NCBI RefSeq assembly: GCF_003149185.1
Contig: NZ_QGDO01000002.1
Span: 1,116,001 to 1,180,000, forward strand
Length of the DNA: 64,000 nucleotides
Direction: 5' to 3'
Source: Sediminitomix flava
Lineage (GTDB): Bacteria > Bacteroidota > Bacteroidia > Cytophagales > Flammeovirgaceae
Shown here: positions 10,828-59,017 of the stretch, piece by piece
Layout: the number at the start of each line of letters is the position of its first letter
Position numbering within the stretch: position 1 is the stretch's first letter
The notes under the pieces: model-generated
What the model saw: the letters and a program-made list of their open reading frames with translations, nothing else
Told to the model about the DNA's origin: nothing
Database searches by the model: none
Program-made: the position numbers and the translations under genes

Positions 10828-10859
10828 TATTTATATTGGTTACTATTTTTAACTACTTA

Positions 10860-11130
10860 ATGTTTTTTTCGGGATTAAGAACCACTGTTCTTAGAATTAA
10901 CGAAGTGGTCTAAGAACTCACAAATGAACGTAAGTACTAGGACAAATGATTTTGGGGTAAAGTTTTACTGTTCTTAGAGTTGTTCTAAGAACTCACAAAT
11001 GGATACCAGAGTCTTCAGACTCGATTTTATATACATTTTTAGAGTCTAAAGAACTGCGTCCGCCTCTTTCTTTCATAGATAAACCTTAGATACTGCACTC
11101 GCTAGCTTCGCAAATTCTAAGGATAGTATC
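10860..11130. repeat. Modular hairpin repeat, copy A (between uxs and fcl)
   Basis: This fills the 309-base gap between the two genes. Module 1 (10887-10917) has 9-bp arms GTTCTTAGA/TCTAAGAAC around a 13-base loop ATTAACGAAGTGG. Next come TACTAGGACA (about 10935) and a second GTTCTTAGA/TCTAAGAAC hairpin near 10970-10992. Then follow GAGTCTTCAGACTC, the reverse half AGAGTCTAAAGAACTGCG, and a CCTTAGA...TCTAAGG hairpin with a longer loop ending near 11122. The same modules recur at 15436-15629, 18656-18729 and 57878-58115. Confidence 0.8.
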
Positions 11131-11136
11131 CCCTTA

Positions 11137-12072
11137 CTAGTTTGCTATTTCTAATTCCTGAAAATCTTGATAGACTTTTTCGATCCCCTCTTTTAGATCG
11201 ATTGTATATTTCCAGCCTAATCTTTCTAGCTTAGATACATCCATCAGTTTTCGAGGAGTTCCATCAGGTTTAGAAGTATCCCAAATTAATTTTCCTTCAA
11301 AGCCTACTGTATCTTTAATGGTCTCCGCTAGTTCTTTGATGGTCACATCAGTTCCTGTTCCGATATTCACAAGGCCTTCTTCGCTATATGTATTCATCAA
11401 GTATACACAGGCATCTGCTAGATCGTCAGCATGAAGAAATTCACGCATAGGTGATCCCGTACCCCAACAAACAACCTCTTTATCTCCTTTTACTTTGGCT
11501 TCATGAAATTTACGAAGTAAAGCAGGCAAGACATGTGAATTATTTAGGTCATAATTATCATTAGGTCCATACAAATTTGTAGGCATCACAGAAATAAAAT
11601 CACAACCATATTGTGAACGATAAGCATCACACATTTTTATACCTGCAATTTTTGCGATAGCATAAGGCTCATTTGTAGGTTCCAATTCCCCTGTCAGCAA
11701 ATAGTCTTCTCTTAAAGGCTGTGGAGCCATTTTTGGATAGATACATGATGATCCCAAGAACATTAGTTTTTTCACTCCATGAACATAAGACTGATGAATG
11801 ATATTCGTCTGAATCATCATATTGTCATAAATGAAATCAGCTCTATAGGTATTATTCGCATGAATACCACCTACTTTTGCTGCCGCTAAAAAAACATACT
11901 CAGGTTTTTCTTCTTCAAAAAATGAAGCAACTTCTACTTGATTTCTCAAGTCTAGTTCTCTAGAAGTCCTTAAAACAAAATTATGATAGCCATCTTGTTT
12001 TAATCTTCTTAGAATTGCAGAACCAACCATTCCTCTGTGACCTGCAATATATATTCTACTATTTTTATGCAT
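11137..12072 (-). CDS. fcl: GDP-L-fucose synthase
   Basis: Epimerase-reductase that turns GDP-4-keto-6-deoxymannose into GDP-L-fucose with NADPH. It has [14 protein letters not shown] (11-24), catalytic SSCIYPK (108-114), and Tyr137/Lys141 in EPYAIAK. Normal length (311). It is encoded 194 bases downstream of gmd on the same strand and completes that two-step pathway, so fucose is very likely part of the polysaccharide. The spacer between the two genes contains inverted repeats, so the two may not be tightly coupled. Confidence 0.95.
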
Positions 12073-14988: not shown

Positions 14989-15435
14989 ATATTCAAAATT
15001 ACATCTCAATACTTTCAGCTCATCGCTTAAGTACTAGGACAATTGATTTCGGATAATTTCAATTTTCATTCAAATTGATCTTTCCCAGTGTGTACAATCG
15101 TCCATTGTTGATTTGATTGTAGTCTTGACTGCGTCCGCCAATTTTCCTTGATGAAAAACGAATGTTGCACTCGCGCAAAAATCAAGTCCCATTCGATCAT
15201 CCTCCCCACAAATCATCCCAAGCTTCGCACGATGGGACAAGCCTCCCTTTTATGGACTAGTGGGCTGTTTGCCACAAAAGCGGAGAAGCGGAGCTAGTGC
15301 GCTGACCGTTTTTTATGTGGCTTGATTTTCTTTGCTTCGTTTCTTTGATCAAGCAAAGAAATGAAGGCTACAATTTGAAAAAGGAACACAATCCCCGCTG
15401 TGTATGAATTTTTATGAATGAAAAACAATCCTATT

Positions 15436-15629
15436 TACTTAAGTACTAGAACATATATTTTCGAGATAAAACTTTACTGTTCTTAGAGTTACTCTAAGAA
15501 CTAATAAATGAGAGTAGAGGCGGACGCAGTTCTTCTGACTCTATTGTATGTGCATTTTTCGAGTCTAAAGGCTTCTTCTTTCATAGAGAAATCCTTAGAT
15601 CGCTCCGCTAACTCTAAGGATAGTTAAAA
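15436..15629. repeat. Modular hairpin repeat, copy C
   Basis: It contains TACTAGAACA, the near-perfect palindrome GTTCTTAGAG-T-TACTCTAAGAAC (15479-15501), GCGGACGCAGTTCTTC, and GAGTCTAAAG. The last module is a 31-base hairpin (15591-15621) with arms ATCCTTAGA/TCTAAGGAT and a 13-base loop that is the reverse complement of GTTAGCGGAGCGA, a variant of the loop in the other copies. A partial copy (TACTAGGACA, ACTGCGTCCGCC) lies at about 15031-15140. Confidence 0.8.
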
Positions 15630-15705
15630 TTTTTTCAAATCGAAATAGATATGCCACCTCACCTACTTAACACTTGAGTAATTCTATTATTGTGGCCTCG
15701 ATCAA

Positions 15706-18599: not shown

Positions 18600-18655
18600 T
18601 TTTTCTCGTATTTAAATTAGTACTAGTCTAAAAACTAAGCTCTAAACTTGTAACT

Positions 18656-18729
18656 ATCCTTAGAGTTAACGAAGTGATCTAAGGATTTCTCGATGAAAGA
18701 AAGAGGCGAACGCAGTTCTTTAGACTCCG
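18656..18729. repeat. Modular hairpin repeat, copy D, reaching into the pump gene's stop codon
   Basis: Hairpin 18656-18686 has arms ATCCTTAGA/TCTAAGGAT and the 13-base loop GTTAACGAAGTGA. It is followed by ATGAAAGAAAGAGGCGAACG and CAGTTCTTTAGACTC, which match copy A in reverse. The TTTAGACTC part overlaps the final codons and the stop (18720-18722) of the RND gene. Confidence 0.8.
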
Positions 18730-21700
18730 CCCAAGTAGTATTCGATATCTGAAAAGACTTGGTAAAATTGATGAACGGTATCCCAATACATACTTTGAGT
18801 TTTCATCGCATTATCCAGACTTCGGATATAAGTTACATAGTCAATTTCTCCAGCTTCATAGCTTAGCTTTGCATGTTTTATTTGTTCTTCACTCAAAGGC
18901 AGTGCTTGTTCTTGATAATAGAACAAGGTTTGTTGTAGCTGTCTGTATTCTTGAACTTTCTGTTGAAGGAGTGTTTGTAACCTTATATCTTCTTCTTTAT
19001 ACTTTTGCTCTGTAAGCTGCTTATTCAGCTTTGCAGCCTGTAGCTTTCCTTTTTGTGGAACAAACCACAAAGGAATCGCCAAACCAACTTGATAGGAATA
19101 CAAACGACTAATCATACCAGGATCATCCCGCTCTTGCCAACGGTATTGCAATTGGATATCGGGGAGAAATTTATTCTTTTCAATTTTAACCGCTCTATCA
19201 CTCACTTCCTCCATCTGTTTGAAGTATTGCAAGTCAGGATTTTGAAGTAAATCTAAATTCGCCAAATCAATCATCGGAAAGGCTTCCAAATCAAAGAGTG
19301 ATTGCTTAATGACCTCTGCACTTCCGACATAACGCTGTAAATCAAATTGCGCTAAACGTAATTCGGTCAGCATTTGCTGATAAAAAACTTGCACCAACTG
19401 ACGAGTATTCATGGCATTCAGGTATTCAGTACGAGAAGTTTCTTCCAAATTGTAACGCAGTTCTACAGATTGTTCAAAGTCTACATAAACACTATCAATA
19501 CGTCTGAATAATTCAAACTTTTTCTGAGCGACAGCCTGTTTGTACCATGCTTTTTTGACCAATCTATTCAGCTCATTTTCTTTACGGATGACATTTTTCC
19601 CTTGCAATTCTTCCAACTCATTCAACCATTGATGCTGAGCGCTGTAAACCGTTGGAAAAGCAAATTGCTGAGAAACGCCAAAAACTGTTCGAATTCCGAA
19701 ATCTTCACCTCCAGCCTCATCTTCCCCTATAAAAACTTGCGTCTTGTTGATATTTACAGCTGTCGATTTTAAAGCGGAAGCTGCCTGATGTGATAAATCG
19801 GCTTGTTGGACAGTTGGGTAATAAGCAACGGCTGTACTCAAGACATCTTCCAATCGCCATACTTTTTCAGACTCTTGTGCGAAGGTAAACTGAGATTGAA
19901 AAAAGAACAGGGTAAACAAAATAGTAGGTAAAACCACCTGTGGTGTTATTAGTCCTAAAGCACTTCCTTCTTCATCTTTTCTTTCTTCTCGTTTTTCTAC
20001 CACATAATAGAGAATTGGTATAATGATCAGCGTAAGTACAGTAGCTGTAAACAAACCACCAATAACTACTGTGGCTAAAGGTCGTTGTACTTCAGCCCCT
20101 GCAGATCTTGATAGTGCCATGGGGAGAAACCCTAAGATATCTGTAGATGCCGTCAATAAGATAGGACGAAGGCGCTCTTTGGTAGCCAACAAAATACGCT
20201 GCTTGATATCCGTTACGCCCTCTTCTTTCAGAGCATTCAAACTACTAATCAATACCAAACCATTCAGAACAGCCACTCCAAACAAAACGATAAAACCAAT
20301 TCCTGCCGAAATACTAAAAGGCATTCCTCGGAGTAGCATCGCCCAAACACCTCCCATGGTTGCTAGCGGAATTGCAATAAAAATCATCGTAGTTTGGCGT
20401 ATCGATTTGAGCGCAAAGAAAAGTAAGATAAAAATCAAAAGAAGTGCCACAGGAACAAGTAGGAACAAACGTTCTTTGGCTTGTTGTAAATTTTCAAATG
20501 CTCCTCCATATCGGATATAATAACCTGCTGGCAGATTGAGCTTCTCATCTAAAACACCTTCAATTTCTTGAATTAACGATTCGACATCTCGACCTCTCAC
20601 ATTTATTCCGATAGAGATTCTACGATGTGTATCTTCTCTTGTGATCTGCATTGGCGCTTCTTGGTACTCAATTTTTGCGACTTCAGACAATCTGATTTGC
20701 CCTCCCGTTGGCGTGGGCACATATAAATTTCGGAGTGATTCAAGATCTGATCTGAAATCTTTTTCGAATCTTAATACCAAATCAAAACGGCGCTCTCCTT
20801 CAAAAATCTGCCCTGCTGTTTTACCACTAAACGCAGATTGAATGATATCATTGATTTCTCCGAGATGAAGACCGTAACGCGCCAAACGTTTTCGATCATA
20901 ACGGATATTCATTTGTGGTAAACCTTGTGTTGCTTCCACATTCATATCACCAACCCCTTCTACATTTGCGACCAATCGACTGACTTCTTTTGCTTTTTGA
21001 GCTAAGACATCAAGTTCTTCTCCATAAATCTTAATCGCTATGTCTTCTCTCACCCCTGTCATCAACTCATTAAAACGCATTTCGATAGGTTGTGAAAACT
21101 GTAGATTTACTCCAGGCAATACCGATAAAGCCTCTTCCACCTTTTCTATTAGCTCAGCCTTACTCTCTACTTTTTTCCATTCCGAATCGGGCTTTAGTAT
21201 CAGAAATACATCAGCTAAATCCAATGGCATTGGGTCAGTAGGAATTTCACTTACACCTATTTTACTTGCTACAGATTCTAATTCATCTGGAAATTCAGCC
21301 AATAAGATTTGCTCTATTCTTTTCGTTACATTTTCAGTTTCGCTCAGTGCCGAACCTGGTTTGAGAATGGCGTGCATCGCAATGTCCCCTTCATCCAACT
21401 GAGGCATAAACTCTCCCCCCATCCGATTCAATTGCCAGAGCGATAACACAAAACTTAAAAGTGCTGTAAATACAATCGGTCTACGGTATTTTAAAGCAGC
21501 TTGTACAATAGGTGCATAAAAATCTTCGAGCTTCTGAATCACTTTATCCCCGAAACTAAATTTATCCATGCCTTTCCAAGACATAAACACAGAAGAAACC
21601 ATCGGCACATAGGTCAGACATAGAATCATAGCACCAATGATTGCAAATGAAAATGTCAGCGCCATAGGTTTAAACATCTTCCCTTCCACGCCTGTCAAGC

Positions 21701-23084
21701 TTAGAATAGGCACAAAGACAATAAGGATAATCAGCTGTCCAAAAAAGGCTGCATTCATCATTTTACTCGAAGAATCAACCACTAACTTATCCTTAGATGT
21801 TTCTTCGTCCTCACTTTTTGATTTCAAAAATTTCTGCATAGAAAGCACGATACTTTCTACAATAATCACTGCTCCATCTACAATAATCCCGAAGTCAATT
21901 GCTCCTAAACTCATGAGGTTTGCCCACACATCAAAGATGTACATCATGATAAAAGCAAAAAGAAGTGATAGCGGAATCGTAGAAGCGACGATCAATCCTC
22001 CTCGCCAATTCCCGAGTAGAAGCACTAATACAAAAATCACGATCAGCCCACCTTCAATAAGATTTGTCGCTACCGTAGAAGTGGTTCGTTCGATTAGTTT
22101 TGTTCGATCTAAGAATGGTTTGATATGTACTCCTTCGGGTAAAGATTTCTCAATTTGAGCTACTCGTTCAATCACATTTTTGATCACTTTATCTGAATTT
22201 GCCCCTTTCAGCATCATGACCAAACCACCAACGGCATCTTTTCCATCTTTGGTAAAAGCCCCATACCGAATAGCTCTACCAAATTGGACTTTAGCGATAT
22301 CTTTCACCAAAATTGGAGCTCCCCCAATAACTTTAACCACTATATTTTCAATGTCTGAAATAGAAGTAAGTAGACCTTCTCCTCGGATAAAATTGGCTTG
22401 ATGATTTTTTTCGATGTACGCACCACCTGTATTTGCATTGCTCGACTCCAAGGCTTCAAACACATCTACAACACTGAGTTCATAATTATGCAAAAGCTGT
22501 GGATGTAAGGCTACTTCATATTGTTTTAAGTTCCCTCCAAAACTATTGACTTCTGCCACACCTTCCAGCATTGCCATCTGACGCTTGACAATCCAGTCTT
22601 GCATACTACGCAGTTCTGTTGGAGAGTAAGTATAGCCTTCTTCGACTTCTAAACAGTACTGATAAATTTCACTCAATCCTGTACTGATTGGCCCCATCAT
22701 TGGAGAACCGAAACTTTCGGGGATATCTTCTTTTACTTCTTCTAATTTCTCAGCAACTAATTGCCTTGGAAGGTAAGTTCCACTTTCATCTTTAAAAACT
22801 ACGGTAACTACCGACAGACCCGATCGAGATACCGAACGAAGCTCTATCACTCCTGGTAAATTGGCCATCGAAAGCTCTACAGGATAGGTGATAAAACGTT
22901 CAATATCTTCCGTTCCAAGGCTTGGCGCTGTCGTAATTACTTGAATCTGATTGTTAGTAATATCTGGTGTTGCATCAATCGGGATTTCACGCATTGCAAA
23001 AATCCCCATTCCAATCCAGAACAACATCATGAAGCTAATTGCCAATTTGTTCTGAACCGAAAAAGCAATAATTTTTCGAATCAT
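18720..23084 (-). CDS. CusA/CzcA heavy-metal RND pump fused to a TolC-like outer membrane factor
   Basis: 1454 residues. Residues 1 to about 1045 are a complete heavy-metal RND pump: N-terminal helix MIRKIIAFSVQNK, and the proton-relay motif AIDFGIIVDGAVIIVES in a membrane helix, the DFG...DGA form known from divalent-cation (Zn/Co/Cd/Ni) pumps rather than Cu/Ag ones. A hydrophobic segment ending in FAQES (about residue 1066) looks like an internal signal peptide. The last 390 residues are an outer-membrane-efflux domain (VLSTAVAYYPTVQQADLSH, repeated alpha-hairpins). Long CusA fusions of this kind occur widely in Bacteroidota. The last codons and stop lie inside a dispersed repeat. Confidence 0.92.
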   Translation of the reverse strand: MIRKIIAFSVQNKLAISFMMLFWIGMGIFAMREIPIDATPDITNNQIQVITTAPSLGTEDIERFITYPVELSMANLPGVIELRSVSRSGLSVVTVVFKDESGTYLPRQLVAEKLEEVKEDIPESFGSPMMGPISTGLSEIYQYCLEVEEGYTYSPTELRSMQDWIVKRQMAMLEGVAEVNSFGGNLKQYEVALHPQLLHNYELSVVDVFEALESSNANTGGAYIEKNHQANFIRGEGLLTSISDIENIVVKVIGGAPILVKDIAKVQFGRAIRYGAFTKDGKDAVGGLVMMLKGANSDKVIKNVIERVAQIEKSLPEGVHIKPFLDRTKLIERTTSTVATNLIEGGLIVIFVLVLLLGNWRGGLIVASTIPLSLLFAFIMMYIFDVWANLMSLGAIDFGIIVDGAVIIVESIVLSMQKFLKSKSEDEETSKDKLVVDSSSKMMNAAFFGQLIILIVFVPILSLTGVEGKMFKPMALTFSFAIIGAMILCLTYVPMVSSVFMSWKGMDKFSFGDKVIQKLEDFYAPIVQAALKYRRPIVFTALLSFVLSLWQLNRMGGEFMPQLDEGDIAMHAILKPGSALSETENVTKRIEQILLAEFPDELESVASKIGVSEIPTDPMPLDLADVFLILKPDSEWKKVESKAELIEKVEEALSVLPGVNLQFSQPIEMRFNELMTGVREDIAIKIYGEELDVLAQKAKEVSRLVANVEGVGDMNVEATQGLPQMNIRYDRKRLARYGLHLGEINDIIQSAFSGKTAGQIFEGERRFDLVLRFEKDFRSDLESLRNLYVPTPTGGQIRLSEVAKIEYQEAPMQITREDTHRRISIGINVRGRDVESLIQEIEGVLDEKLNLPAGYYIRYGGAFENLQQAKERLFLLVPVALLLIFILLFFALKSIRQTTMIFIAIPLATMGGVWAMLLRGMPFSISAGIGFIVLFGVAVLNGLVLISSLNALKEEGVTDIKQRILLATKERLRPILLTASTDILGFLPMALSRSAGAEVQRPLATVVIGGLFTATVLTLIIIPILYYVVEKREERKDEEGSALGLITPQVVLPTILFTLFFFQSQFTFAQESEKVWRLEDVLSTAVAYYPTVQQADLSHQAASALKSTAVNINKTQVFIGEDEAGGEDFGIRTVFGVSQQFAFPTVYSAQHQWLNELEELQGKNVIRKENELNRLVKKAWYKQAVAQKKFELFRRIDSVYVDFEQSVELRYNLEETSRTEYLNAMNTRQLVQVFYQQMLTELRLAQFDLQRYVGSAEVIKQSLFDLEAFPMIDLANLDLLQNPDLQYFKQMEEVSDRAVKIEKNKFLPDIQLQYRWQERDDPGMISRLYSYQVGLAIPLWFVPQKGKLQAAKLNKQLTEQKYKEEDIRLQTLLQQKVQEYRQLQQTLFYYQEQALPLSEEQIKHAKLSYEAGEIDYVTYIRSLDNAMKTQSMYWDTVHQFYQVFSDIEYYLGGV

Positions 23085-25019: not shown

Positions 25020-25102
25020 GGAGAGTTGGCAGAGTGGTAATGCAGCAGCCTGCTAAGCTGTCATCGGTTTCCGATGCGCGGGTTCGATCCCCGCACTCTC
25101 CA
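25020..25102 (+). tRNA. tRNA-Ser (anticodon GCT)
   Basis: Acceptor stem GGAGAGT/ACTCTCC, anticodon loop CTGCTAA, class-II long variable arm (ATCGG/CCGAT) and T-loop TTCGATC. No CCA is encoded. First of eight genes in the array. Confidence 0.95.
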
Positions 25103-25136
25103 CAACTTTTCTACTTTAGTACGTAAATTCATTGTT

Positions 25137-25211
25137 CGGGGCGTAGCGCAGCCCGGTTAGCGCACCTGGTTTGGGACCAGGGGGTCGCAGGTTCGAATCC
25201 TGCCGCCCCGA
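25137..25211 (+). tRNA. tRNA-Pro (anticodon TGG)
   Basis: Acceptor stem CGGGGCG/CGCCCCG, anticodon loop TTTGGGA, T-loop TTCGAAT. CCA not encoded. Identical to the copy at 25463. Confidence 0.95.
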
Positions 25212-25235
25212 CGAATAATGAGAACGAAAAATGGA

Positions 25236-25309
25236 GGTCCGATAGCTCAACTGGATAGAGCAACTGCCTTCTAAGCAGTAGGTTCCAGGTTCGAGTCCTG
25301 GTCGGATCA
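25236..25309 (+). tRNA. tRNA-Arg (anticodon TCT)
   Basis: Acceptor stem GGTCCGA/TCGGATC, anticodon loop CTTCTAA, T-loop TTCGAGT. First of four Arg-TCT copies in the array. Confidence 0.95.
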
Positions 25310-25357
25310 CAAAGAGAACTGCTCTTGTAGTGGTTCTCTTTTTCTTGCCAAAATTCT

Positions 25358-25440
25358 GGAGAGTTGGCAGAGTGGTAATGCAGCAGCCTGCTAAGCTGTC
25401 ATCGGTTTCCGATGCGCGAGTTCGATCCTCGCACTCTCCA
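25358..25440 (+). tRNA. tRNA-Ser (anticodon GCT), second copy
   Basis: Same as the gene at 25020 except for one compensated pair in the T stem (GCGGG/CCCGC becomes GCGAG/CTCGC). The pair change keeps the fold, so both copies are under selection. Confidence 0.95.
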
Positions 25441-25462
25441 CACTTGGCTAGAGAAAATAATT

Positions 25463-25537
25463 CGGGGCGTAGCGCAGCCCGGTTAGCGCACCTGGTTTGG
25501 GACCAGGGGGTCGCAGGTTCGAATCCTGCCGCCCCGA
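25463..25537 (+). tRNA. tRNA-Pro (anticodon TGG), second copy
   Basis: Identical to the copy at 25137 over all 75 bases; part of the duplicated Ser-Pro-Arg unit. Confidence 0.95.
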
Positions 25538-25555
25538 CGAATTATTTCTTTAAAA

Positions 25556-25629
25556 GGTTCGTTAGCTCAACTGGATAGAGCAACTGCCTTCTAAGCAGTA
25601 GGTTTCAGGTTCGAGTCCTGAACGAATCA
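25556..25629 (+). tRNA. tRNA-Arg (anticodon TCT), diverged copy
   Basis: Acceptor stem GGTTCGT/ACGAATC and T stem TCAGG/CCTGA both differ from the other Arg copies, but all changes are paired; the anticodon arm is unchanged. Confidence 0.94.
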
Positions 25630-25670
25630 CAAAATCATCTAGTTTATAAAATAATAGTTGATTCCAGTAT

Positions 25671-25744
25671 GGTCTGATAGCTCAACTGGATAGAGCAACT
25701 GCCTTCTAAGCAGTAGGTTCCAGGTTCGAGTCCTGGTCGGATCA
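25671..25744 (+). tRNA. tRNA-Arg (anticodon TCT), third copy
   Basis: Acceptor GGTCTGA/TCGGATC with one T-G wobble relative to the copy at 25236; the rest is identical. Confidence 0.94.
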
Positions 25745-25798
25745 CTATTATTTATCGAACCACACTTGGAATGAATCATCCTGATTCTTTTCAAATTC

Positions 25799-25872
25799 GG
25801 TCCGATAGCTCAACTGGATAGAGCAACTGCCTTCTAAGCAGTAGGTTCCAGGTTCGAGTCCTGGTCGGATCA
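25799..25872 (+). tRNA. tRNA-Arg (anticodon TCT), fourth copy
   Basis: Identical to the copy at 25236 over the tRNA body (GGTCCGA/TCGGATC). Last gene of the array; a terminator begins two bases downstream. Confidence 0.95.
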
Positions 25873-25873
25873 C

Positions 25874-54631: not shown

Positions 54632-54842
54632 TGAGTAATGTCATTAATTGAAGGAGGTTCTTTACTGAATCGTTCCATTAAGATTCAACAAAACAGAAAA
54701 GCGTTCCCTAATGTTTCTGCTTTCTACCTCTAAACCTTACTCCTAGACGTACTTTTTGGCTTTATTTTGTTCTGAATACGATGCATTGATTCATTTTCGC
54801 AGTGGAGGAAGTGTAACAATTAAAAAACCCAAAAATGTTTAT

Positions 54843-56201
54843 ATGAAAGCTTCGATGAAACTAAGCATTGCTACATGCTTACTACTAACTTGTATGTTTG
54901 GTTGTAGTGATGACGACGACGGAAACACCACAACTTCATCTTCTCAATTAGACGAACAACTTGAGGAGCAACTCATGGTCTCTTCTAGCGGCGCTGGAAT
55001 GTCATTCTACATTCTTCCCGAAAGTGATGACTACAATAACATTCCTCAAGATCCAAACAATCCTATAACAAGAGCCAAATGTGATTTGGGACAATTACTT
55101 TTCCACGAAACCGCATTGGCTATCGTTCCTAAAAAAGAAATCAGCAGAAACACTTACTCATGTGCTTCATGTCACCACGCGGCTGCCGGATTTCAAGCAG
55201 GACGTATGCAAGGTATTGGAGAAGGTGGACTTGGTTTTGGTATTGCAGGAGAAGGAAGATCTGCACATTTAGAATATGTAGACTCCTTACTAGACGTACA
55301 ACCACTACGATCTCCTACGGCAATGAACGGTGCTTACCAAAAAAATATGCTTTGGAACGGGCAGTTCGGAGCTACGGGTAAGAACATAGGTACTGAAGCT
55401 CAATGGAAAGAAGGAACACCGATCGCGACCAACAAATTAGGCTTTGAAGGATTGGAAACTCAAGCTATTGCTGGCTTAGGCGTTCACCGATTGAGTATCA
55501 ATGACAGTATTCTTGATGATCACAACTATCGAGAGATGTTTGATGCAGCTTTTCCAAACGATCCTGTAAGTGACAGATATAGCCTTACAAACGTTGGATT
55601 GGCCATTGCTTGCTACGAAAGAACACTTATGGCCAATGAATCTGGATTCCAAAAATGGTTAAAAGGAGATAAAACAGCACTTAGTGACGCAGAAAAGCGT
55701 GGCGCTTTGGTTTTCTTTGGGAAAGGCGAATGTTACTCTTGTCACAATGGGCCAGCACTCAACACAATGGAGTTTACTGCCATTGGTATGGGTGACCTTG
55801 AAGGAGCTTTAGTAAGAGGTGCTGAAGATGAAAAAGCAAACTTGGGTAGAGGTGGCTTTACAGGAAATGATGCTGATAAATATAAATTTAAAGTTCCTCA
55901 GCTCTACAACTTGAAAGATTCTCCTTTCTACGGACATGGAAGTACATTCAAAACGATTCGTCAAGTTATTGAATATAAAAACAAAGGTGAAGTTCAGAAT
56001 GCAAATGTCACGGAACAATATCTTGATTCAAGATTTAAGCCATTGAACCTCACTTCAGATGAAATAGATGATTTAGTCAAATTCTGTGAGTATGCACTTT
56101 GGGATGATAACTTAAAACGTTATGAACCGGAAACAATACCTTCTGGGATGTGTTTTCCAAACAATGATGCCCAGTCTAAGTCTGACATGAATTGTGACTA
56201 A
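54843..56201 (+). CDS. Di-heme cytochrome c peroxidase-family lipoprotein, copy 1
   Basis: Member of the CCP/MauG family that reduces peroxide or oxidises substrates with two c-type hemes. Start chosen at the ATG at 54843 (an ATG at 54855 is also possible), because the signal peptide begins there; upstream in-frame residues look non-coding. The lipobox MFGC is followed by SDDDD, matching the lipoprotein export signal of Bacteroidota. Heme sites are CASCHHA (first domain) and CYSCHNG (second). About 450 residues. A second copy follows after a terminator. Confidence 0.88.
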   Translation: MKASMKLSIATCLLLTCMFGCSDDDDGNTTTSSSQLDEQLEEQLMVSSSGAGMSFYILPESDDYNNIPQDPNNPITRAKCDLGQLLFHETALAIVPKKEISRNTYSCASCHHAAAGFQAGRMQGIGEGGLGFGIAGEGRSAHLEYVDSLLDVQPLRSPTAMNGAYQKNMLWNGQFGATGKNIGTEAQWKEGTPIATNKLGFEGLETQAIAGLGVHRLSINDSILDDHNYREMFDAAFPNDPVSDRYSLTNVGLAIACYERTLMANESGFQKWLKGDKTALSDAEKRGALVFFGKGECYSCHNGPALNTMEFTAIGMGDLEGALVRGAEDEKANLGRGGFTGNDADKYKFKVPQLYNLKDSPFYGHGSTFKTIRQVIEYKNKGEVQNANVTEQYLDSRFKPLNLTSDEIDDLVKFCEYALWDDNLKRYEPETIPSGMCFPNNDAQSKSDMNCD

Positions 56202-56303
56202 TAAGATATACCGCAAGATGTATTTGGTATTTGGAGCGATGGAGAAGCGTACGGAAGGAATTGTTGGTGTGTAGATTTAGTTTTCCATTTACAAAAAGCG
56301 GTT

Positions 56304-56336
56304 GAGCTGCCTCAAATTGAGGTAGCTCTTTTTTTA
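56304..56336 (+). terminator. Rho-independent terminator after peroxidase copy 1
   Basis: GAGCTGCCTC/GAGGTAGCTC with one G-T and one further loose pair, 5-base loop and a T run; about 100 bases past the stop. Confidence 0.8.
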
Positions 56337-56484
56337 TGCACAAAAATCAGGTATATCTCTACATTCAAATTTCTTCATTTTTTCATCAAACCTTACATCT
56401 TAATAAAATTCAATATCCTCTTATGTTCTTTATACATCCGCAGATTTAAACGAAGGTGTTAATAGAATCCAAAGAACAACTATC

Positions 56485-57858
56485 ATGAGATTATCGAAAA
56501 AGAGGTGGGGAATACTCATTTCCTCATTACTATCTGTCATGATCATGTCTTGTAGCGATGATGATGACCCAGTAAGTGCCACAACTTCTTCTTCCGAACT
56601 CGACAAACAACTAGAAGAAGCCCTTATGATTGCCTCTGAAGGCGAAGGGATGAATTTTTACATTTTTCCAGAAAGCGACGATTATAGCAATATCCCTCAA
56701 GACCCCAATAATTTAATTACAGAAGAAAAATGTAGACTGGGGAAATTGCTATTCCATGAAACTGGCTTGGCAGTAAATCCAAAACGAGAAGAAGGTAAAC
56801 ACACCTACTCTTGTGCTTCATGCCATAATGCAGGCTCAGGCTTTCAGTCTGGACGAGCACAAGGTATAGGAGAAGGTGGACTCGGTTTTGGATTTAAAGG
56901 TGAAGGTAGAACTCCGCATTTAAATTATGATGACAGCTTGCTTGACATTCAGTCCATTCGTGTACCAACAAACTTAAATGTAGCCTACCAAAGAAATGTC
57001 TTTTGGAATGGACAACTAGGAGCCACCGATGCCAACGCAGGAACCGAAGGTCTATGGGTTGAAGGTTCTGCTTCCTTTACAAACCACTTAGGTTTTTTAG
57101 GTCCAGAAACACAGGCCATCATCGGACTTACAGAACACCGTATGGATATGACTCCTGAATTGGCTGAACAATACGGTTATAAAGAGATGTTTGATGCCGC
57201 ATTCCCCGACTATCCCGAAAGTGAGCGTTACACTCCTGTCACTGCAGGTTTGGCTATTGCTTGTTATGAACGTACACTCCTAGCCAACAGAGCTGGTTTC
57301 CAAAAATGGTTGAGAGGTAATAAAGCAGCTATGTCTGATGCCGAGAAAAGAGGAGCATTAATCTTTTTCGGAAATGGAGAATGTTCTTCTTGTCACAACG
57401 GACCTGCGCTTAGTACATTACAATTTGCAGCTATCGGTATGGGAGACTTAACTGCCTCTTTAGTTAGAAGTGGAGGGAGTAGTGAATCAAGTTTGGGTAG
57501 AGGAGGTTTTACTGGAAATGATGATGAGCTTTATGCCTTCAAAGTTCCTCAGCTTTACAACTTGAAAGATGCACCATTCTTTGGGCACGGAAGTACTTTT
57601 ACTTCTCTTCGTCAAGTCATTGAATACAAAAATAGAGGAGTCGCGCAAAATGCTAATGTCACCGAAAAATACCTCGACCCAAGGTTTAAGCCACTCAACT
57701 TAAGTGAAGACGAGGTTGATGATTTGGTCAAATTCTTAGAATATTCACTTTGGGATGAAGAACTTGAAAGATATATCCCTAGCTCAAATCTTTCTGGATT
57801 CTGCTTTCCTAACAACGATGAACAATCCAAGTTTGATTTGGGCTGTGATCCTCAATAA
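56485..57858 (+). CDS. Di-heme cytochrome c peroxidase-family lipoprotein, copy 2
   Basis: 457 residues, paralog of the preceding gene (by eye about two thirds identical, colinear). The lipobox MIMSC is followed by SDDDD. Heme sites are CASCHNA and CSSCHNG. Shared segments include IGEGGLGFG, GRGGFTGND and KVPQLYNLKD. The two genes have separate leaders with a terminator between them, so they can be expressed independently. Substrate unknown: peroxide detoxification or a MauG-like oxidation is possible. Confidence 0.88.
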   Translation: MRLSKKRWGILISSLLSVMIMSCSDDDDPVSATTSSSELDKQLEEALMIASEGEGMNFYIFPESDDYSNIPQDPNNLITEEKCRLGKLLFHETGLAVNPKREEGKHTYSCASCHNAGSGFQSGRAQGIGEGGLGFGFKGEGRTPHLNYDDSLLDIQSIRVPTNLNVAYQRNVFWNGQLGATDANAGTEGLWVEGSASFTNHLGFLGPETQAIIGLTEHRMDMTPELAEQYGYKEMFDAAFPDYPESERYTPVTAGLAIACYERTLLANRAGFQKWLRGNKAAMSDAEKRGALIFFGNGECSSCHNGPALSTLQFAAIGMGDLTASLVRSGGSSESSLGRGGFTGNDDELYAFKVPQLYNLKDAPFFGHGSTFTSLRQVIEYKNRGVAQNANVTEKYLDPRFKPLNLSEDEVDDLVKFLEYSLWDEELERYIPSSNLSGFCFPNNDEQSKFDLGCDPQ

Positions 57859-57877
57859 TTAATACTGTATTAAATAC

Positions 57878-58115
57878 TAGGACATAAGGAAATAGGTAAA
57901 GCTACATATTCTATTCGAAGAGTTAACAAAGTGATCTTCGAATTAAGATATGGGAGTTAGAGTCTTCAGACTCGACATTTTAGCAGATTTTTCGAGTCTG
58001 AAGACTCTGGTTTCCATTTGTGAGTTCTTAGAGTAACTCTAAGAACAGTAAAGGAGAAATCCTTAGATCACTTCGTTAACTCTAAGGATAGTATTGCCCA
58101 TATTATTATGTCCTA
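57878..58115. repeat. Modular hairpin repeat, copy E, complete with terminal inverted repeats
   Basis: Fills most of the 334-base gene-free gap. Ends are TAGGACATAA (57878-57887) and its inverse TTATGTCCTA (58106-58115). Inside are four hairpins. 57913-57943 has arms ATTCGAAGA and loop GTTAACAAAGTGA. 57959-57975 with 57992-58008 is a perfect 17-bp stem containing GAGTCTTCAGACTC. 58024-58046 is a near-perfect palindrome, GTTCTTAGAG with CTCTAAGAAC. 58059-58089 has arms ATCCTTAGA and the reverse complement of loop GTTAACGAAGTGA. Confidence 0.88.
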
Positions 58116-58144
58116 TTCCTTATTTACTCATAAGTAATAAAAAA

Positions 58145-58192: not shown

Positions 58193-59017
58193 TTAGTAAG
58201 ACCAAAGTGTCGCTTCGTACTCCATCAATTGGTATAAAGCTTCTAATGATTTGTAATATCCATTTTTACCATCACCATGAAAATCTACAATTGTATTATC
58301 TTTCGGATTTTCATATTTACTCAACACTCCATGATATAACTCTAGGTTAAATGCATCTGTCAAATTTCTGTGCTGTGCTTGGTTTTCTGTATTGTACCAA
58401 ATGGCATCAGGATTATCTACCGTTTTTCCACCTTCTTGCATGTGGAACACATTTTCATTCAATTCTTTGAAAGAGAAAGTAGCAATTGGTAAATCCAATT
58501 CTAAAACATTCTCTTTATGAGGAAGAATAAGTGTGATCGACTGAATATCGTTATACATACGTGAACGACGTTGATCAAATACTCTATCAATTTTCATTTC
58601 TAGCAACCAAAACTGACGCGCATTATATTCATTACCTGCGGCAAGGTCATCGCCCCAAGCTTCCATCATATCTTCATCTAAACCTTCTGTTTGAGGAACA
58701 CGAAGGCGTTTCAAAAATTCTTCTTTACTCATTCTTGTTGCCAAAGAATCATTCATGTAAGGGATGATTTTATCTTCCTTTACAGCATTGATCAGCAACT
58801 TTGAGATTTCATTGTTTTGTGCGAAGAATGGCTCGTTTACTCTAGTTTTGAGGTTTAGTGTAAACCACAAAGACTTTTTCCACATAATATCATCTTCACG
58901 AATAGGACGTACAGAATGAGGGTTGTATTTACCTTCTTTCTCTACATACGCTTCCTGCGCTCCACTTATAAATGGAAAACAAAACAATCCTATGAATAGT
59001 ATTTTGAATATTTTCAT
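58193..59017 (-). CDS. gldN: GldN-family gliding motility/T9SS protein, stand-alone
   Basis: 274 residues with a signal peptide (ILFIGLFCFPFISGAQ). The start of the mature protein (VRPIREDDIMWKKSLWFTLN, then LKTRVNEPFF) and the segment YNARQFWLLEMKIDRVFDQR match the GldN/PorN family, which forms periplasmic rings with GldK in the type IX secretion system. Classical gldN is the last gene of gldKLMN; here gldK, gldL and gldM are absent, so this may be a second paralog with a specialised role. Short for the family. Confidence 0.7.
   Translation of the reverse strand: MKIFKILFIGLFCFPFISGAQEAYVEKEGKYNPHSVRPIREDDIMWKKSLWFTLNLKTRVNEPFFAQNNEISKLLINAVKEDKIIPYMNDSLATRMSKEEFLKRLRVPQTEGLDEDMMEAWGDDLAAGNEYNARQFWLLEMKIDRVFDQRRSRMYNDIQSITLILPHKENVLELDLPIATFSFKELNENVFHMQEGGKTVDNPDAIWYNTENQAQHRNLTDAFNLELYHGVLSKYENPKDNTIVDFHGDGKNGYYKSLEALYQLMEYEATLWSY

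Follow-up and report, generated by a model that had tools for sequence, protein, structure and literature searches.

RUP, a repeat of Streptococcus pneumoniae, has been proposed to be a MITE mobilised by IS630-Spn1 (PMC2229807). The repeats analysed here, from the genome of Sediminitomix flava (the host), resemble RUP as characterised there: they are short, non-coding and intergenic, with IS630-like ends and a TA target. They differ in their interior, a three-hairpin module that exists alone in other genera, and are likened to RUP by description, not by sequence. Correia/NEMIS elements of Neisseria share the small size, the terminal inverted repeats, TA at the termini and base-paired transcripts (PMC2229807). 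Their hosts and sizes are different, a captured REPIN-like core does not figure in the passages on them, and the comparison is again by description only.

REP, BIME and REPIN sequences, together with their TnpAREP (RAYT) transposases, provide the second point of reference. They are intergenic, form inverted palindrome doublets, exist in many stem versions and keep a tag (PMC6006769, PMC3733652), all of which recurs here: the doublet was found at 50 of the 61 places in the host, and Cytophaga and Sphingobacterium contributed 15 and 5 pairs, respectively. The tag of the present repeats, however, is CT, where the known one is GT[AG]G or CGTC; there is an additional, separate hairpin in the centre, and the host copies are bounded by DDE-type ends. 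A motif scan of the examined stretches recognised no RAYT-like gene near the copies; given this and the CT tag, we rejected a simple filing under REP/RAYT. The genes of TnpAREP subclass 2.6, found mostly in Bacteroidetes, are flanked by atypical structures that lack GT[AG]G and have copies elsewhere in the genome (PMC6006769). These structures come close to the present repeats by description, not by structure comparison, but motif scans of the loci found no subclass 2.6 gene here.

A third likeness concerns the hairpin tips. GNA and GNNA loops closed by G-C pairs form exceptionally stable DNA mini-hairpins of the d(GCGAAGC) type (PMC4686876), and such loops with G-C closing pairs recur at the tips described below. 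The mini-hairpins described there are short synthetic fragments. In the present case they form the hairpin tips of a repeat family, and roughly half of the host long-loop hairpins have A-T as their second pair.

Among the titles and abstract openings returned by searches of the open-licence literature, none described this element. Its IS630-type MITE part is of a known kind; the travelling three-hairpin module looks new, and it is this cargo and its distribution that form the new part. We consider it likely that the host repeats are IS630-type MITEs carrying a captured, older palindromic core, and that ends and core were amplified together.

Element copies in the analysed window

The window is the whole 64,000-nt stretch of the host genome that was analysed. 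A sequence-only reading had noted five hairpins in it, and all five are real, each with a perfect 9-bp stem and a 13-nt loop as described. The four loci listed for them do share modules, but turned out to be whole or partial copies of a larger element of ~200-250 bp. Copy E, a complete element, has the 17-bp second stem attributed to it; its terminal repeat is longer than the proposed 10 bp, and the element (57872-58121) extends beyond the 57878-58115 originally assigned. The features are as follows.

57872..58121, no strand: copy E, complete element between the convergent genes 56485-57858 (+) and 58193-59017 (-)
57872..57898, + strand: copy E, left IS630-type terminal inverted repeat AAATACTAGGACATAAGG..., with T before it (TA at 57871-57872)
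57911..57943, + strand: copy E, CT foot and type-B side hairpin ATTCGAAGA/TCTTCGAAT, loop GTTAACAAAGTGA
57959..58008, no strand: copy E, central hairpin with 17-bp stem AGAGTCTTCAGACTCGA / TCGAGTCTGAAGACTCT, from sequence and fold
58024..58048, - strand: copy E, extra type-A side hairpin GTTCTTAGAG/CTCTAAGAAC and AG foot
58059..58091, - strand: copy E, type-C side hairpin ATCCTTAGA/TCTAAGGAT, loop GTTAACGAAGTGA, and foot
58095..58121, - strand: copy E, right IS630-type terminal inverted repeat ...ATTATGTCCTATTCCTT, with A after it (TA)
10851..10931, + strand: partial half-element, weak model match (E 0.02), hairpin 10887-10917, directly before the next element
10932..11153, no strand: element with left end AAGTACTAGGACA (10932-10944) and decayed right end
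15029..15440, no strand: member of a second MITE family, same left end, shortened right end, modules ACTGCGTCCGCC and TGCACTCGC
15441..15668, no strand: three-hairpin element, left end AAGTACTAGAACA, A left hairpin, C right hairpin at 15591-15621 on the - strand
18618..18729, + strand: solo left half whose own end has decayed (AGTACTAGTCTA at 18619-18630), carrying the type-C hairpin 18656-18686
10887-10917, 18656-18686 and 57913-57943, + strand: hairpins noted earlier, read from the sequence
15591-15621 and 58059-58089, - strand: hairpins noted earlier, read from the sequence

In copy E, positions 57959-57975 pair with 57992-58008, and the right half reads as a chimera of A and C halves. Its neighbours encode a protein of the di-haem cytochrome c peroxidase family (56485-57858, +) and GldN (58193-59017, -). 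The window copies are not equivalent: the hairpins at 10887 and 18656 belong to incomplete copies, and immediately before the element at 15441 comes a different one (15029-15440), whose end is of the same kind. The interior of 10932..11153 consists of a type-A hairpin (10970-10992), a central stem with a 12-nt insert and a type-C hairpin. For 15441..15668, the model match stops at 15650, and the right end ...CACCTACTT at 15668 was placed by eye.

The window holds further features. Two adjacent genes of the di-haem cytochrome c peroxidase family occupy 54756-57858 and share a 300-nt stretch of 73% identity. A 1454-aa frame at 18720-23084 (-) appears to encode a fused efflux pump, with matches to an AcrB-type transporter (residues 5-1029) and to an outer-membrane efflux protein domain (1280-1441). 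Eight consecutive tRNA genes (Ser-Pro-Arg-Ser-Pro-Arg-Arg-Arg) lie at 25020-25873, and their four Arg(TCT) copies are 91-100% alike.

Copy number and plan of the element

The host genome (6.6 Mb, 39 contigs; G000) holds many more copies than those in the window, so the refuting outcome named in the sequence-only reading, a genome with these copies alone, did not arise. With copy E as query, 131 matching pieces were obtained, and a half-element model (R1) gave 116 matches at E up to 1, of which 103 reached 0.01 or better. These matches fall into 61 places, 57 of them with at least one match at E 0.01 or better and four resting on weaker ones; since 150 of 6099 first-look candidates were scored, 61 may be a lower bound. 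A left half is followed by an inverted right half in 50 of the 61. Chance or decaying debris devoid of mobility is, judging by copy number, a very improbable source of these repeats: many copies are partial or miss an end, but 61 places with common ends and TA flanks, and multi-copy versions in two other species, contradict it.

The element plan was derived from 30 loci read first and then from all 61 places. After a TA-flanked end, AGTACTAGGACA or AGTAGGTGGACA, come a spacer and the first side hairpin; a central hairpin (GAGTC...GACTC) follows between two linkers, and the element closes with the second side hairpin and the other end, both inverted. Complete copies measure ~200-250 bp and have no coding capacity, the longest closed ATG frame across 37 near-complete copies being 43 aa. 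Twelve-letter inserts are present in some loops and central stems; exact matches to GGCGGACGCAGT number 25 genome-wide, compared with 0 for its reversed control. Three main types of side hairpin were distinguished by their stems, A (GTTCTTAGA), B (ATTCGAAGA) and C (ATCCTTAGA), which make up 41, 24 and 39 of 104 host halves, respectively. The hairpin foot is CT in 91 of the 95 halves that remain after dropping those scoring below 20 (9/104).

The two side hairpins of one element were never of the same type. Once elements with either half below a score of 19 had been dropped, 41 host elements had a score for both hairpins, in 22 AC, 11 BC and 8 AB combinations. Same-type pairs (AA, BB or CC) numbered 0 against 14 expected, a result reached by 0 of 20,000 shuffles that ignore descent. 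This heterotypic pairing could come from three founder combinations. We build no conclusion on it, because the shuffle ignores descent and Cytophaga aurantiaca does have same-type pairs.

IS630-type ends and the TA target

Both ends can be recognised, at up to 4 mismatches, in 23 host copies; TA adjoins the left end in 17 of them, the right end in 19 and both ends in 14. At up to 3 mismatches, ends were found on both sides at 29 of the 61 places, on one side at 21 and on neither at 11, one of the latter being an artefact of the preceding half; the chance rate is 5% per end. The left and right ends of one element are weakly coupled, with 200 of 10,000 permutations reaching the observed value, and we rejected this coupling as pairing evidence on that account.

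The same ends recur in a sister genus. Exact AAGTACTAGGACA occurs 57, 11, 4 and 98 times in the genomes G010, G013, G015 and G017, respectively, where its reversed pattern gave 0 in all four; it is absent from five other sister-genus genomes and occurs once in G011. One filled site in G017 reads AATTCATATATA, AGTACT...AGTACT, TATCTATG, and the corresponding site in G010 reads AATTCATATATA, TCTATG. TA thus stands on both sides of the G017 element and once in the G010 sequence, an exact empty site with TA duplication. This site belongs to the same-ended element of the sister genus; the 38 relative genomes searched included no second genome of the host's genus.

G017 also carries IS630-family frames of 174 and 190 aa (PF13358) between AAGTACTAGGACAAAAGTAATCGAG and AAGTACTGTGACAAAAGAAATGGG, in a unit of ~1.1 kb. 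This transposase is split into two frames, of which the C-terminal one exceeds the NF033545 cut-off and the other scores 62.8 of 100 bits. By eye, 23 of 25 letters agree between AAGTACTAGGACAAAAGTAATCGAG and a host end (L017l). This G017 element is the one IS630 seen with these ends; the IS630 of G015 has diverged ends. Two other IS630 elements of the order (L155 and L156) appear to start with AG directly after TA, followed by differing letters; since the search that yielded them looked for TA-flanked inverted repeats, this is not independent of the TA, and most other loci tried gave nothing clear.

Because the same ends surround an IS630 transposase and an empty site with TA duplication exists in the sister genus, the host copies are best read as IS630-type MITEs and not as hairpin-recognised elements. 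On this sequence evidence, the outer ~27-30 bp of each side would be IS630-type terminal inverted repeats (TA followed by AGTACTAGGACA...). An IS630-family DDE transposase supplied in trans would excise the element at these ends and insert it at a TA, which would thereby be duplicated. We infer that the host copies were moved by such an enzyme. The non-autonomous mobile element suggested from the sequence alone is borne out by the 61 places, the paired inverted ends, the TA flanks and the exact empty site of the same-ended sister-genus element. Recognition through hairpins, as in REP/RAYT or IS200/IS605-like systems, gains no support from the host copies, given the match between their ends and an IS630-family DDE element.

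A search of the host genome at E 1e-5 for relatives of the C-terminal G017 transposase frame found none, and for the one IS630-like gene of the host (C2:474840) matching ends were not found; the helper transposase is therefore absent, lost or too diverged. An end pair at C8:234662-236966 was considered as an autonomous element and rejected, since its two ends start two different MITE families.

Other repeats were observed alongside. The IS630 ends are shared by a second MITE family of the host, ~400 bp long (~210 bp in L103) and represented for example by L093, L094, L098, L100, L103 and L105; some members carry the modules ACTGCGTCCGCC and TGCACTCGC. In G017, locus L064 (query positions 1484-1646) holds a ~161-bp repeat with ends AGTGCTAA/AGTACTAA, which is abundant in G010, G013 and G015 and missing at the matching G010 site. 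MITEs in head-to-tail order, a TACTT end running directly into the next AAGTA twice, are found at G010:C83:16232-16566 (L137).

The three-hairpin core in other genera

A fixed-hairpin scan of GTDB genomes gave two matches outside the host. In Cytophaga aurantiaca all three hairpins are present, and in Sphingobacterium wenxiniae a side hairpin, the central palindrome and a loose second hairpin. A second model (R2), whose rows came from the host (21), Cytophaga (2) and Sphingobacterium (1) and which was thus partly trained on its targets, retrieved 49 halves in C. aurantiaca, 30 in S. wenxiniae and 111 in the host, with 150 candidates scored per genome. In 15 genomes of the host's family it found 0 to 3 halves each. 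The narrow pattern AGARTTWRCGNAGYKATCT, which misses diverged stems, was searched in a 395-genome sample of the phylum and gave 34 matches in the host and 1 elsewhere, compared with 1 for the reversed control. We rejected the lone match outside the host, which has no element layout and looks coding by eye. The type-C hairpin had no exact match in viral contigs, and neither a Cytophaga nor a host copy was matched in plasmid records.

Twenty-one of the Cytophaga and Sphingobacterium places were inspected: 15 C. aurantiaca pairs (133-153 bp), 5 S. wenxiniae pairs (110-122 bp) and 1 single hairpin matched on both strands. These stand-alone cores run from CT to AG, and an IS630 end was not seen by eye at any of the 21. 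Across the 15 C. aurantiaca pairs, mean identity is 80-85% over the 20 nt inside the feet and 26% over the 20 nt outside. The foot is CT in 56 of 59 Cytophaga and Sphingobacterium halves, and at least 8 of 9 stem pairs are formed in 54 of 59. In the sister genus, six R2 matches all have a diverged 9-10 bp hairpin of this kind; five show a CT foot, and one lies at a contig edge and was read on the other strand. The central palindrome is present in five loci (L262, L263, L264, L269 and L274), and a second side hairpin is visible in L262 and L263. A seventh R2 match (G001) is a CT-footed hairpin with an AAA tip.

We judge the core to be independent because it also occurs, free of IS630 ends, in other, distantly related Bacteroidota. 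It is most likely a REPIN-like repeat, which in the host lineage became enclosed by IS630 ends and was amplified with them. In the proposed sequence of events, a core of 5'-CT, a ~9-bp side hairpin, the GAGTC...GACTC central hairpin, the other side hairpin inverted and AG-3', found elsewhere without IS630 ends, would have come to lie between such ends and spread with them. The direction of capture, from an older core into IS630 ends, is presumed. Host cores with other stems and without terminal inverted repeats (e.g. C2:869639, C3:210361 and C8:155865) may be stand-alone remnants or decayed copies, and decay could account for the host copies of this kind.

The stand-alone cores also bear on a different explanation, in which the hairpins themselves are the mobile signal. 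A Y1 (HUH) transposase, for instance of the Bacteroidetes-specific TnpAREP subclass 2.6, would recognise CT-footed single strands, and the IS630 ends of the host would be secondary. We give this somewhat less than an even chance. Two inverted hairpins around a centre, multi-copy in two genomes without IS630 ends, speak for it, as do the absence of a target duplication by eye at stand-alone copies and the atypical structures reported around subclass 2.6 genes. The clear DDE-type ends and TA flanks of the host copies speak against it, as does the strength of the present stems, given that PMC6006769 describes the subclass 2.6 structures as weaker. Scans for the [ND]HxH motif, covering the examined loci including the listed C. 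aurantiaca neighbourhoods and, in S. wenxiniae, ~656 kb, were run twice and yielded 5 and 4 frames, none of which we judged by eye to be a Y1 transposase. By analogy, subclass 2.6 is the best candidate for a mover of the stand-alone core, and recognition through hairpins may apply to the REPIN-like cores of other genera.

Captured cores in IS630-type MITEs, our preferred reading for the host, and a hairpin-recognising enzyme elsewhere may be combined. We advance only tentatively, and consider rather doubtful, the idea that a widespread Bacteroidota family of three hairpins with CT foot and GNA/GNNA tips spreads by a putative single-strand DNA transposase and was captured by an IS630 transposon in the host, so that one sequence would be spread by two unrelated mechanisms. 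A REPIN-like repeat joined to a DDE transposon would allow the two modes of spreading to be compared in one genome, and the stand-alone cores offer a concrete recognition sequence with which to seek the transposase in Bacteroidota.

Stem pairing, loops and tips

The stems of the five window hairpins are fully paired, as had been noted; genome-wide, all nine pairs are Watson-Crick in 64 of the 95 well-scored host hairpins. Counted by cell, these 95 halves give 808 Watson-Crick, 17 G-T and 30 mismatched pairs in 855 cells, and the Cytophaga and Sphingobacterium halves 507, 12 and 12, respectively. The variation is compensatory, in agreement with the covariation proposed earlier: 18 distinct perfect 9-letter stems were found, 7 in the host, 8 in Cytophaga and Sphingobacterium and 3 in the sister genus, not counting one further Cytophaga/Sphingobacterium stem that is the same stem in shifted register. 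In an alignment (A3) of hand-chosen rows (21 host, 2 Cytophaga and 1 Sphingobacterium) that lean towards well-paired copies, both partners vary in 5 of the 9 stem pairs and in 1 of the 2 tip pairs, and 98.8% of cells are paired compared with 26-45% when the strands are slid. The covariation score was reached by 0 of 500 shuffles and the number of pairs changing on both sides by 101 of 500.

Replication can turn quasi-palindromes into palindromes, which gives stems an appearance of covariation. Pairing kept by such templated mutation, and not by selection, is compatible with captured cores in IS630-type MITEs, and we regard it as a rather unlikely main cause. Of the 60 host cells off the type consensus, 46 are one-sided (29 mismatches, 17 G-T) and 14 both-sided (13 paired), so that unpaired intermediates exist and G-T is not favoured, which speaks for it. 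The CT foot, the conserved inner AGA/TCT and the GNA rule, which recur in different genomes, are not explained by it.

The 13-nt loop holds in the five window hairpins but is not fixed across the host genome, where the outer pair, the middle triplet, inserts and short type-A loops vary. The long loop contains a small hairpin and is present in types B and C and in 3 of 37 well-scored A halves; the other 34 have loops of at most 8 nt, mostly 5, and most type-A hairpins of the host are without a GNA tip. Among 61 host long loops, the outer pair of the inner hairpin is A..T in 30, G..C in 26 and other in 5 (Fisher p 2e-13). As middle triplet, 48 of these loops have GAA, 4 GGA, 4 AAA, 2 GTA, 1 GCA and 2 another one, and 55 fit GNA. 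In Cytophaga and Sphingobacterium the tip x-C-GNA-G-x' is present in 44 of 54 halves, with GC as outer pair in 36, CG in 7 and AC in 1. Sister-genus tips are GTTA, GTCA, GATA and GCCA (GNNA), GCA on the other strand of L270 (GNA) and GTAT, which is neither.

By way of the stable DNA mini-hairpins of PMC4686876, the GNA/GNNA tips point to the DNA strand as the selected form, and the hairpins would, by this analogy, act as single-stranded DNA. They link a natural repeat family to mini-hairpins known from chemistry, and make the choice between DNA and RNA as the selected form directly testable.

Alternatively, the elements might give rise to a structured RNA, or serve at the RNA level as terminators or mRNA stabilisers, with covariation reflecting selection on RNA. 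Folds are strong in 16 whole copies (-60 to -101 kcal/mol, values without a shuffled control). At gathering score, however, the only Rfam matches in the window are eight tRNAs, and one copy compared with Rfam at E up to 1 gave 17 matches, all below gathering score; we rejected a filing under an RNA family for want of a match at that score. The near symmetry of the element means that neither strand is marked, separate terminator-like hairpins adjoin several copies by eye, and the tips, GNA or a GNNA whose third base is a pyrimidine, fit the DNA GNA/GNNA class better than RNA GNRA, as the sister-genus GTTA, GCCA, GTCA and GATA are not GNRA. We thus hold the RNA explanation to be improbable, and the original suggestion of either a mobile element or a structured RNA is upheld in part, for its first half.

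Genomic setting

Sixty of the 61 host places lie between reading frames, 25 of them between convergent, 33 between tandem and 2 between divergent genes. Other gaps are convergent in 5 and divergent in 12 of 55 cases (Fisher p 9e-5 and 0.003, respectively), by a crude gene call (frames of at least 90-100 aa) and with a window share of the baseline (32 gaps) that still includes element-bearing gaps. An intergenic position, often between convergent genes, would also suit an RNA function. Insertion tolerated behind genes and away from promoters fits the setting, and for REPs, too, insertion is tolerated behind genes and away from promoters. In C. aurantiaca, 10 of 25 places are convergent, 12 tandem, 2 divergent and 1 inside a frame.
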